Shown here: positions 3,877 to 6,998 of the stretch, piece by piece | How the letters are laid out: every line of letters starts with the position of its first letter | How positions within the stretch are numbered: position 1 is the stretch's first letter | Source: Oricola sp. | GTDB taxonomy: Bacteria > Pseudomonadota > Alphaproteobacteria > Rhizobiales > Rhizobiaceae | DNA length: 64,000 bases | Reading direction: 5' to 3' | Assembly: GCF_022763245.1 (NCBI RefSeq) | Contig: NZ_JALEGV010000041.1 | Span: 248,001-312,000 of the forward strand | Notes under the pieces: model-generated | Database searches by the model: none | What the model saw: only the letters and a program-made list of their open reading frames with translations | Told to the model about the DNA's origin: nothing | Translations under genes and position numbers: made by a program

Positions 3877-4530
3877 TCAGGCCGGCTGCTTGGTCTTGCG
3901 CAGATAGGGCAGGATCGAGTCGATTTCGCCGAACTTCTCCTTGGCCTGCTCGTCATTGAGCGACAGCGCGACGATGACGTCTTCGCCCGGCTTCCAGTCG
4001 GCCGGCGTCGCGATCGGCTGGCCGTCGGTGGCGCGCAGGGCATCGAGCGCGCGGATCACTTCGGCGAAGTTGCGGCCGACCGACATCGGGTAGGTCATGG
4101 ACAGGCGCAGCTTCTTGTCCGGGCCGATGATGAAGACCGAGCGCACGGCAGCGGTGTCGGCGGCGGTGCGGCCGTCCGGCAGATAGGCTTCGGCCGGCAG
4201 CATGTCGTAGAGCTTGGCGACCGTCAGGCTGGTGTCGTCGATGATCGGGAAATTTGCCGGCAGGCCGGCATAGGATTCGATGTCGCTCTTCCACTTCACG
4301 TGGTCGGCGACGTTGTCGACCGAAATGCCGATCACCTTGGTGTTGCGCTTCGTCCACTCGTCATCGAGGCGGGCCACGGCGCCGAACTCGGTGGTGCAGA
4401 CCGGGGTGAAATCCTTCGGATGGGAGAACAGGATGGCGTAGGAGTCGCCGATCCACTCGTGAAAGCTGATGGTTCCCTCGGTGGTCTCGGCGGTGAAGTC
4501 CGGGACGATGTCATTGATACGGAGGCTCAT
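3877..4530 (-). CDS. 1-Cys peroxiredoxin (Prx6 family)
   Basis: This cytosolic peroxidase reduces hydrogen peroxide and organic hydroperoxides. The 217-residue protein has the active-site motif HPKDFTPVCTTE with the peroxidatic Cys45. It contains no other cysteine, so no intramolecular resolving thiol exists and an external reductant is needed, as is known for Prx6 enzymes. The long C-terminal dimerisation region (RSVFIIGPDKKLR, then YPMSVGRN) is also Prx6-like. The ATG at 4530 was chosen over upstream in-frame codons because AGGAGA lies just before it. The gene is monocistronic, ending at the terminator 3824-3852. Confidence 0.93.
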   Translation of the reverse strand: MSLRINDIVPDFTAETTEGTISFHEWIGDSYAILFSHPKDFTPVCTTEFGAVARLDDEWTKRNTKVIGISVDNVADHVKWKSDIESYAGLPANFPIIDDTSLTVAKLYDMLPAEAYLPDGRTAADTAAVRSVFIIGPDKKLRLSMTYPMSVGRNFAEVIRALDALRATDGQPIATPADWKPGEDVIVALSLNDEQAKEKFGEIDSILPYLRKTKQPA

Positions 4531-4670
4531 TTCATTCTCCTGCTGGTGGACTGGGACGCGTGATAGCGTGAAAGGCGGGTACAATCGTGAGATAGTGTTC
4601 CAAACCCCCGGAACAAATGAGTAATTTCGCACTGTCACGCGGCAGATTGGCGCACAGGACCTAGGGGTAA

Positions 4671-5687
4671 TCAGGATTCAGGCAGGGCGGACGCCTCCAG
4701 GCTCGCCATGTAGTGATGCGCGGCCGCCATGATCGCGCGCCCTTCATCGGTGTAGTCGGCGTGTTCGTCGAGAACGGCGTAACCCTGCATGAACAGATCC
4801 CGGCACTCCCGGGCCCTGTCGCGGGCGTCGCATCTCATCTCCGGATCGAGCCTCTGTGACTTCGCGAATTCATTCATCGAGAAACAGGTGCGGGCGAGCA
4901 CGAACGTCGCGTGATAAATCCCGTCCATCGGACGCGGATCTGCGCGCAAGGGCGATTTGTAGAGCTCATCGATCGGGTTGCGGACATGGAACTCGACCGG
5001 CGAGGCGCCGTAGAGATAGCTGTGCGCTGCTTCGTGCATCAACGCCTCGCACAGCCCGAGCGATGACGCGAAGGCGTCGGGATTGATCAGCATCGAGCCC
5101 CAGCGCTCGAGACTGCTGCATGCGCCGAGCTCCGCATCGCCTTCTCCGACGAGATCGCGGACCGGCACGATCTCGGCGATCACGTGGTCCATCTCCGCAC
5201 GCGTCAGCGGCGCGTGTTCGACGACCAGTCGCAGCGCATCTTCTATACGCGCGACGTCGCGAGCGGCCGTCGCCTCCTCCAGCCTGCCGATCTGTTCCGG
5301 CAGAAGGGATTCCGACACGAACTGGCTGCGCAGCCTGTCTTCCTCGGACCGGGTGAAATGTGTGCGAAGGAGCGGCCGGACGCTGCATCCATCGCCCGCC
5401 TCGAAGGGCCCGGCCAGCAAGCAGTCAAGCGCGTCTTGCGCCGCGTCCTGATCTTCCTGCTGCGTGCCGATGGCGCCGACAAGAGCGAAATAGTCGCCGA
5501 AAACCGATGGCCTGACGCGTCTTGTCGAGTTCAGCAGATCGACCAGCTCATGACCGGCCTGTGAGTCATAGGGTCTGACTCCGCGGCATCGGTCAAGAAT
5601 GTGCGCGACACTGACCGCCAGACGCTTCTGGATGCGCATCCGCGATGCGCGCCCGTTCTCGCTGCCGGGAAGAAACGGATTGTCCAA
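4671..5687 (-). CDS. HExxH-motif protein, peptide beta-hydroxylase (mod_HExxH) family
   Basis: The 338-residue product carries HEAAH at residues 218-222, followed by PLRADPRPMDGIYH (246-259), whose last histidine is a good third metal ligand. This pairing of HExxH with a downstream R-x-DPRP-x-x-G segment is the signature of the mod_HExxH family, now regarded as 2-oxoglutarate/iron-dependent beta-hydroxylases of ribosomal peptides. It is not a zinc protease. The frame opens with a TTG at 5687 that has no clear ribosome binding site; an ATG at 5639 is the alternative start. The gene lies 36 bases after a 41-codon peptide ORF in the same frame, separated only by one TGA. No other RiPP enzyme (radical SAM, YcaO, lanthionine synthase) is adjacent. 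The family assignment is fairly firm; substrate and chemistry are inferred. Confidence 0.75.
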   Translation of the reverse strand: MDNPFLPGSENGRASRMRIQKRLAVSVAHILDRCRGVRPYDSQAGHELVDLLNSTRRVRPSVFGDYFALVGAIGTQQEDQDAAQDALDCLLAGPFEAGDGCSVRPLLRTHFTRSEEDRLRSQFVSESLLPEQIGRLEEATAARDVARIEDALRLVVEHAPLTRAEMDHVIAEIVPVRDLVGEGDAELGACSSLERWGSMLINPDAFASSLGLCEALMHEAAHSYLYGASPVEFHVRNPIDELYKSPLRADPRPMDGIYHATFVLARTCFSMNEFAKSQRLDPEMRCDARDRARECRDLFMQGYAVLDEHADYTDEGRAIMAAAHHYMASLEASALPES

Positions 5688-5723
5688 ATCGTACGATGCC
5701 GGAAGCGGGGCGAGAGCGCCTGG

Positions 5724-5849
5724 TCAGCTCTTCCGGGTCGATGGCGTCGTCAGTTTGACCAGCTTCGGTTTCCCTGTGCCCGTCATCCGGTCGCCCTTGC
5801 TGTTGTTGCCAAGCAGTTTGGAAGCGTCGAGAACAATTTTTTCGGCCAT
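5724..5849 (-). CDS. Putative 41-aa precursor peptide for the HExxH enzyme
   Basis: A short ORF begins with ATG at 5849, ten bases after a GAGG ribosome binding site, and ends at TGA 5726-5724. The peptide starts MAEKIVLDASKLLG, a plausible amphipathic leader helix. It continues into a Gly/Thr/Lys-rich tail with MTGTGKP at 22-28 and LTTPSTRKS at the end. It has seven lysines, five threonines, four serines and no cysteine, histidine or aromatic residue. Its GC content is about 56 %, lower than the neighbouring genes. It is immediately upstream of, and co-directional with, the HExxH gene. Position, size and leader-like N-terminus suggest a RiPP substrate. It could instead be a small regulatory leader peptide; I do not recognise the sequence. 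Confidence 0.6.
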   Translation of the reverse strand: MAEKIVLDASKLLGNNSKGDRMTGTGKPKLVKLTTPSTRKS

Positions 5850-6037
5850 TGAGCTAACCTCGTTCGCCGTCTGCCGCGGAACCCCATGTCACCGCGGCGC
5901 AGCGGTTGATTTCCCCCGGCAGCCTAACATAATGCGGTCGCATCGCAAGCTTGAGCAGGTGTCGCGCAGGTCGTCGAAAGGCCAGAGACGCACGCTCTCA
6001 GCGCCGCGGAAAGCGGGCAGGAAAGGCCGAAACGGAC

Positions 6038-6994
6038 ATGATCCTGTTCGTGACCACCGCGTTTCATCGATACACGCTGTCGAGAACCGCGCGGCAGACG
6101 ATCGGCCGCGGCGTGCTGCAGGTCGTCTCCTATGACTGGCTCTTTCGGCAGCCGGCCATCCGGGCCTCCTGCGTCATCTTCACCGATTTCGACCGGCTCA
6201 GGCATTTCGAACTGGCGGAAGCGGGGCGCTGCTATCGGCAATTGCGCGAGGGCGGCATCCGTGTCCTCAACGACCCGGCAAGGGCACGCCAGCGCCACGA
6301 CTTGCTGCACACCCTGCATGCGGCGGGCGTCAACCGGTTCCGGGCCTGGCAAGCGGCTCTGCGGCCGAAGCCCGATCGCTTTCCGGTCTTCGTCAAATGC
6401 GAGACGGATCACAGGCAGGCCTTCGACGAACTGATCGCCGACCAGCCGGCGCTCGACCGCAAGCTCGATGAGATCGAGGCGGACGGCATGTCGTTGCGCG
6501 ATCTGCTCGTGATCGAGTTCGCCAACGAACCGATCCGCGACAATGTCTTCCATCGCAAGACGGTCTACCGGGTCGGCGACCGGATCATACCGGGCGTCCC
6601 GGTGGTGGAGGACAAGCCGTTCGTCAAATACGGACGGATCGAAGTGGCGCGCGAGGAGGATTTCGTGACCTTCGCCGAGTGGATGCGCAGCAATCCGGAA
6701 CGTGAACAATTGCGCCGGGTCTTCGACATCGCGCGGATCGACTACGGCCGGGCCGACTATGTTTCCGGTCCGGACGGGCTGGCGATCTTCGAGATCAACA
6801 CAAACCCGACCGTACGCGCCCGGTTTCCCGAGCAGAATGCCGCATTTCTGAACGTCGCCTGGGATCGCTTCGACGAGCTGACGGAGGCGATCCGCTCGCT
6901 CGATGGCGAAGACCGCACTGTTTCTCTCGATCGCGGCAAGGCCCGGTCGTCGCGCCTTCGTCTCGTGGCGGGGTTCTTTCTCAAGATGCCCTGA
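6038..6994 (+). CDS. ATP-grasp domain protein
   Basis: The 318-residue protein shows an ATP-grasp fold: a central FPVFVK lysine (K120), a hydrophobic VIEFANEP strand (158-165), RIDYGRADY (233-241) and the metal-binding FEINTNP motif (251-257, E252 and N254). ATP-grasp enzymes activate a carboxylate with ATP and ligate it to an amine, thiol or hydroxyl. The ATG at 6038 was chosen because the N-terminal strand MILFVTTAFH begins the fold; the longer frame from 5951 adds only a basic stretch. It is transcribed away from the peptide/HExxH pair, with a 188-base gap shared by both directions. Similar orphan ATP-grasp proteins occur in other contexts, so the functional link is inferred. The protein ends four bases before the convergent prfC stop. 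Confidence 0.8.
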   Translation: MILFVTTAFHRYTLSRTARQTIGRGVLQVVSYDWLFRQPAIRASCVIFTDFDRLRHFELAEAGRCYRQLREGGIRVLNDPARARQRHDLLHTLHAAGVNRFRAWQAALRPKPDRFPVFVKCETDHRQAFDELIADQPALDRKLDEIEADGMSLRDLLVIEFANEPIRDNVFHRKTVYRVGDRIIPGVPVVEDKPFVKYGRIEVAREEDFVTFAEWMRSNPEREQLRRVFDIARIDYGRADYVSGPDGLAIFEINTNPTVRARFPEQNAAFLNVAWDRFDELTEAIRSLDGEDRTVSLDRGKARSSRLRLVAGFFLKMP

Positions 6995-6998
6995 GGCG

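Follow-up and report, generated by a model that had tools for sequence, protein, structure and literature searches.

Several of the recently recognised HExxH oxygenases act on ribosomally synthesized and post-translationally modified peptides (RiPPs), and the residues reported as targets of the family are Asp, His, Phe, Gln, and Pro in the accessible part of PMC13060819. We analyzed a 64,000 nucleotide stretch of an Oricola sp. genome (contig NZ_JALEGV010000041.1, positions 248,001 to 312,000), which we call the window, and found that it carries a gene for an HExxH protein together with a gene for a 41 residue peptide and a gene for a divergent ATP-grasp ligase. The three genes probably form a RiPP-type cassette, in which the HExxH enzyme would hydroxylate the peptide and the ATP-grasp enzyme would form amides on it, probably at lysines of its core. 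A preliminary description of this DNA had proposed a RiPP locus made of the peptide and the HExxH protein; both of those parts are supported, but the proposal was incomplete in that it overlooked the ATP-grasp gene. We rejected a two-gene locus because the ATP-grasp gene is linked to the other two and lies inside the same insertion.

The described proteins closest to the window HExxH protein are ChlB HExxH (8s5f) and SjiH (22ob), with which it has the HExxH and D-x-R motifs, the profile, and the fold in common. The PDB record of SjiH carries the name radical SAM core domain-containing protein, whereas the window protein stands alone, and unlike ChlB HExxH and SjiH it adjoins an ATP-grasp enzyme and a precursor with a Lys/Gly core. 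In the available portions of the sources (PMC12636437; PMC13060819), PflC/PosC and PesO are likewise separate HExxH enzymes with a small precursor, but they are partnered either by a fusion of an MNIO with a nitroreductase or by two enzymes, one an MNIO and the other asparagine-synthetase-like, where the window has an ATP-grasp enzyme; their targets are Gln or Pro, and their precursor motifs differ from those of the window family. Corallotide (graspetide group 15, CorA-D) also combines an ATP-grasp enzyme and an oxygenase with repeated Lys motifs, but according to the accessible part of PMC13097080 its oxygenase is of a divergent 2-oxoglutarate (2OG)-Fe(II) type, is given for Corallococcus only, and goes with a required Asp in the motif. 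On the ligase side, RimK, ArgX, LysX, and D-Ala-D-Ala ligase (Ddl) have a fold like that of the window ATP-grasp protein, but the identity is 12-19% among the best fold matches and the window protein matches no Pfam model; its substrate is presumably the precursor, unlike theirs.

We found no description of an HExxH enzyme together with an ATP-grasp enzyme and precursors of this kind in the open PMC literature, a scope outside which most subscription papers and all supplements fall. A search of open papers for the motif string gave no RiPP paper by title, and HExxH occurs 0 times in the accessible part of PMC8939145. The locus follows RiPP logic and uses a known oxygenase family, but its precursor family and its ligase family are ones for which no description was found. 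It is of interest that these precursors, an ATP-grasp family that escapes Pfam, and HExxH oxygenases are joined in one cassette of ~2.3 kb. Relatives of the cassette are present in Proteobacteria, Verrucomicrobia, Acidobacteria, and Planctomycetes, and these gene sets point to an apparently undescribed family of enzyme-modified peptides.

The HExxH protein matched the NCBIfam model TIGR04267 (aKG-HExxH-type peptide beta-hydroxylase) at 90.9 bits, where the cut-off is 40, and no Pfam model up to an E-value of 1. The HEAAH motif at residues 218-222 and the downstream RADPRPMDGIYH segment, both named in the preliminary description, are in place, and H218, E219, H222, D250, R252, H259, and R266 are invariant in all 24 aligned HExxH proteins. 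When a profile of these 24 proteins was run against the PDB, two sequences fell under E 1e-5: ChlH/ChlB (8s5f, 1e-18) and 22nu/22ob (SjiH, 7e-14 for 22ob). The D-x-R of the RADPRPMDGIYH region is common to the ChlH and SjiH alignments, while the His is found in ChlH only. An AlphaFold2 (AF2) model of the protein, with a predicted local distance difference test score (pLDDT) of 93.3, had only 8s5f and 22ob as fold matches under E 1e-3, the former at E 4e-11 and a template modeling (TM) score of 0.61. The profile, the HExxH with its downstream D-x-R-P segment, and the ChlB HExxH fold all agree with the assignment to the mod_HExxH-type family made in the preliminary description, and by family and predicted fold the protein would be an iron/alpha-ketoglutarate oxygenase. 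Its start is uncertain because no clear Shine-Dalgarno sequence was seen ahead of the TTG.

To obtain related loci, we scanned genomes with an alignment of nine rows; this yielded 88 relatives, from which we kept the best 80 loci. A scan of genome contigs with the single window protein as query had returned no relatives, and a search of plasmids with it gave three records, none covering 80% of the protein. A first survey, which spanned the family, order, and class and was more divergent than the 80-locus set, used a loose regular expression and found leader-like short open reading frames (ORFs) beside 13 of 28 HExxH loci, the window included. A 16-column profile of these 13 leaders, again with that of the window, was then run on all six-frame ORFs of the 80 loci, three of which are contigs used to train it. 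The best leader match was near the HExxH gene (-700 to +150 bases from its ORF start, on the same strand) in 71/80 loci and elsewhere in 7, and in 2 there was none above 4 bits. At 15 bits or more, 68 matches were near the HExxH start and 4 elsewhere. Reading precursors at 8 bits or more gave 79 of them in 70/80 loci.

These 79 precursors have the leader consensus h-x-LD-x-[ST]-[KR]-L-[LYF]-G-F, with the G in 79/79, L in 73/79, D in 73/79, and [KR] in 71/79. The cores are 16% Gly, 14% Lys, and 12% Ala, with Cys, Tyr, and Trp each at or below 0.2% and Asp and Glu together making up 6% of residues. Lys is present in every core (79/79) and K-x-G in 77/79, and K-x-G-x-K occurs in 61/79 cores, where 9.3 are expected from shuffles with a maximum of 16. 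Cys, His, and aromatic residues are all missing from about half of the cores (39/79), and five of the 79 are free of Asp and Glu: four whole post-leader cores (L094, L112, L143, L151) and, in L079, the second unit only. Several repeats are common in the cores, L089 and L143 being rich in them, the C-termini vary, and some precursors (L078, L035) have two leader-core units. The preliminary description had named a conserved leader plus a variable core beside related HExxH genes as what would support its claim, and that test was passed because the short ORFs share a leader and differ in core next to these genes. In nine related peptide pairs, the nonsynonymous rate (dN) over the whole peptide is below the synonymous rate (dS) in 7, with dS saturated in 2; leader dN ranges from 0 to 0.41 and is below core dN in 7/9 pairs. 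Four precursors compared with Pfam and NCBIfam had no match reaching a model, one of them having two sub-threshold Pfam matches.

Both ORFs of the preliminary description are at the positions it gave, the short one with its own GAGG, and 36 bases separate them. The window peptide is, as had been noted, without Cys, His, Phe, Tyr, or Trp. Its leader-like N-terminus also stood up: scored with a profile that drew its 69 leaders from other loci and excluded the window and the Stappia clade, the leader reached 16.8 bits and ranked first among the 98,665 16-mers of the window, with the runner-up at 9.4. This ranking is not fully independent, because the 69 leaders were picked by the first profile of 13, which contained that of the window. 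The peptide aligns with Stappia-type peptides as LDxSKLLGN...GDRM-GTGK, and its core contains GTGKPKLVK and one Asp and ends in RKS. The earlier surmise that the modified residue would be an Asp, Thr, Lys, or similar fits the family, where Lys is universal and Asp/Glu are missing from some cores.

Ten members of the window ATP-grasp family were compared with Pfam, where none matched, and with NCBIfam, where one weakly matched a D-Ala ligase model (E 0.005). The AF2 model of the window protein (pLDDT 84.9) has an ATP-grasp fold, with RimK (5zct) as the first match (E 1.6e-10, TM 0.53), followed by ArgX/LysX, D-Ala-D-Ala ligase, and the graspetide synthetase PsnB (7drm, E 4e-9). EINTNP is invariant in all ten members. 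Homologues lie near HExxH genes in eight other loci of the first survey, and relatives are found in 56 of the 80 HExxH loci, divergently upstream in 41 of the 56. In 15 of the 24 loci without this kind, a direct search found a second, cyanophycin-synthetase-like ATP-grasp gene. Of these 15 ligases, two (L115, L127) were scanned with NCBIfam, and both have the cyanophycin synthetase model NF010623 as their best match, at 246 and 255 bits; this is far under its cut-off of 877, and the alignment spans roughly residues 122-572 of the 871 in the model. Unlike cyanophycin synthetase, the second kind had no Mur-ligase Pfam match in 5/5 scanned. A third kind, TupA-like (PF14305, 32.1 bits, cut-off 25), is directly downstream of a second HExxH gene in the same genome as the window, and a TupA relative is additionally present in 3 of the 56 loci holding the window type. 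On a 96-row HExxH tree, the window clusters with the Stappia-type loci (100/99), and at least 4 changes are required to account for the second ligase kind. HExxH and ATP-grasp distances are correlated (r 0.81, n=56; best of 2000 permutations 0.22). Because other ATP-grasp families replace the ligase, these results suggest that the peptide requires amide ligation as such and not a specific enzyme.

On one side of the three genes is a gene for a 1-Cys peroxiredoxin (about 3877-4530), and on the other is prfC, encoding peptide chain release factor 3 (from 6999). Both flanking genes are found in 6/6 genomes of the genus and the HExxH gene in 1/6. In 3/5 congeners the peroxiredoxin-prfC gap is an empty site of ~140-175 bases, against which the window has an extra segment of ~2.3 kb that holds all three genes (Table 1). 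The edges of the segment depend somewhat on the congener used, being 4597-6994 against G005 and 4676-6997 against G002, and the outer ends of the genes fall within about 15 bases of those against G004. The block was probably gained or lost as one unit in the genus. The other 2/5 congeners have unrelated genes in the gap, a Mur ligase and a sugar transferase in L193 and a GMC oxidoreductase in L194. The open frame of the ATP-grasp gene begins before its ATG at 6038, with a TTG at 5951.

Table 1. Features of the locus, in positions of the window.
Feature	Positions	Strand	Basis and remarks
Precursor gene, 41 codons, leader and Lys/Gly/Thr core	5724..5849	-	ATG start, leader profile, alignment with Stappia-type L078/L080
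Leader motif EKIVLDASKLLGNNSK inside the precursor	5796..5843	-	first among 98,665 window 16-mers
GAGG, ribosome-binding-site-like	5858..5861	-	8 bases 5' of the precursor ATG, read from the sequence
Alpha-ketoglutarate HExxH-type peptide hydroxylase gene	4671..5687	-	338 aa, TTG start uncertain; TIGR04267, AF2 model
HEAAH motif, residues 218-222	5022..5036	-	alignment of 24 proteins
RADPRPMDGIYH segment, residues 248-259	4911..4946	-	alignment of 24 proteins
Divergent ATP-grasp ligase gene	6038..6994	+	318 aa, ATG chosen by alignment with relatives
Segment unmatched in the peroxiredoxin-prfC gap of congener G004	4658..6984	.	flank matches; contains all three genes

We propose that the short gene encodes a precursor whose N-terminal motif would be the leader, recruiting both enzymes. 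The HExxH enzyme would hydroxylate residues of the Lys/Gly-rich core, and the ATP-grasp enzyme, acting before or after it, would activate a carboxylate as an acyl phosphate to form an amide on the peptide. The amide would most likely join core lysines to an outside carboxylate, or else form at the C-terminus, Lys being the likeliest amine because it is in every core. Because some cores have neither Asp nor Glu, the carboxylate in those would be external, the C-terminus of the peptide, or a leader Asp. We infer that both enzymes act on the window peptide, and the Lys target, the order of the steps, and the function of the product are to be read in the same conditional way. A wider proposal, to which we give a little less than even weight, is that the loci make up a widespread and undescribed RiPP class with an LDxSKLLGF leader, K-x-G-x-K repeats, a stand-alone HExxH enzyme, and an interchangeable ATP-grasp enzyme that attaches a carboxylate to (hydroxylated) lysines of the core, and in which fusions of the precursor to Hint domains in some lineages would self-cleave. 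If true, it would give lysine-rich peptides whose side-chain chemistry is so far without example among RiPPs.

Several observations weigh against this interpretation. The product and the enzyme activities are predictions from genes. Ten of the 80 loci have no leader match of 8 bits or more, 9/80 lack all three kinds of ATP-grasp gene, and the 80 loci were selected by similarity to the window HExxH protein, so the linkage counts are not a random sample. In the first survey, 20 of 30 stretches had no ATP-grasp gene of any of the three kinds, 8 had the window type, and one each had the second and the third. The window core is itself atypical in having neither K-x-G nor K-x-G-x-K. In L078/L080 (0.051 vs 0.025) and L022/L025 (0.172 vs 0.105), leader dN is above core dN, core dN exceeds core dS in L100/L109 (0.069 vs 0.032), and the pairs are not independent because 6/9 are drawn from five loci of one beta-proteobacterial group. 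The distance correlation of HExxH and ATP-grasp proteins could come from shared ancestry alone. The ATP-grasp gene also stands alone: of the 16 places that hold it across 397 genomes of the order, 7 are beside an HExxH gene, these being the seven best-scoring.

RimK, LysX, and cyanophycin synthetase add amino acids to the C-termini of their substrates, and the main ligase kinds resemble RimK/ArgX/LysX in fold and, for two members, cyanophycin synthetase in profile. The peptide might then be a carrier, with the ATP-grasp enzyme adding an amino acid at its C-terminus, the HExxH enzyme oxidising that amino acid, and a small molecule finally being released by cleavage. We consider this unlikely, as a carrier does not need varying C-termini and repeat-bearing cores, and no peptidase cluster is found in more than 5/80 loci, the largest, which we take to be signal-peptidase-like, being mere synteny. 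LysW/RimK-type carriers have a conserved acidic residue at the C-terminus, where the window peptide ends in RKS, the paralogue from the same genome in KTK, and others vary.

The presence of an ATP-grasp enzyme beside an oxygenase also brings to mind a graspetide variant, in which the ligase would cyclise the core (Lys/Thr/Ser to Asp/Glu) and the HExxH enzyme would hydroxylate the ring in the manner of CorB/CorC. The accessible part of PMC13097080 gives a precedent in corallotide, with its repeated Lys motifs, isopeptide bonds, and oxygenase; the modelled ligase fold is RimK-like with PsnB among its matches, and the single Asp of the window core could serve as an acceptor. Across the family, Ser/Thr/Lys donors are not regularly paired with Asp/Glu acceptors, and the family as a whole does not fit the classical graspetide scheme: some cores, including the four whole ones listed above, have no Asp or Glu, and these residues are sparse overall. 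Among those four, L112 has the window type of ATP-grasp gene and L143 the second kind. None of the ten ligases reached a curated synthetase model either, and a graspetide variant seems to us quite unlikely. Improbable, in our view, is oxidative cutting, in which the HExxH enzyme would cleave the backbone at the repeats and free short amidated Lys peptides. PflC/PosC of the same family cleave at ARMD, according to the available portion of PMC12636437, and the K-x-G units are repeated, but no ARMD-like conserved end was seen in the 79 cores and the ATP-grasp enzyme would be left unexplained. That the short ORF is no gene at all and the HExxH enzyme acts on another substrate is hardly credible. 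Such a reading could appeal to the shortness of the peptide and its want of Pfam or NCBIfam matches, but leader matches in 70/80 loci, constraint at the codon level, and the six copies in one locus (L146, below) go against it; a chance short ORF was rejected on the first two grounds and on the leader ranking.

The precursor genes vary in number and form among the loci. In L146 (Histidinibacterium lentulum), six precursor ORFs accompany a single HExxH gene, lying ahead of it or at its start, and there are two ATP-grasp genes. In the genome of the window, MSLIKLDSKKLVGFSSEGRKTNTEKGGMPKKTK precedes the second HExxH gene (L002/L038, contig C35). This second cassette has a precursor, an HExxH protein (31% identical), and the TupA-like ATP-grasp enzyme in one row. 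Three ORFs near HExxH genes, L053:5937-6749(+), L053:7705-8601(+), and L057:8885-9682(-), have a leader and a GAKV-type core in frame with a downstream Hint_2 domain (PF13403, 132-134 bits), which might release the peptide by self-cleavage.

Clustering of neighbouring ORFs of at least 90 aa within 5 kb of the 80 loci led us to reject a conserved transporter, protease, or regulator, as no such cluster occurred in more than 7/80 loci. ABC-type ATPases were found in 7/80 and the other clusters in 6 or fewer, mostly from synteny common to related genomes.

We also rejected the idea that the ATP-grasp family is exclusive to the HExxH system, as homologues without HExxH exist, one of them in a polysaccharide cluster. 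Beside one such homologue is a short ORF of RAPMGPPP-like repeats, L174:5638-5895(-), and another similar small ORF is common to L174 and L176; these small ORFs hint at other repeat-peptide substrates. The plasmid homologues in L199 (Paracoccus) and L198 (Deinococcus) are annotated only as hypothetical proteins, and that of L199 is the one within the polysaccharide cluster.
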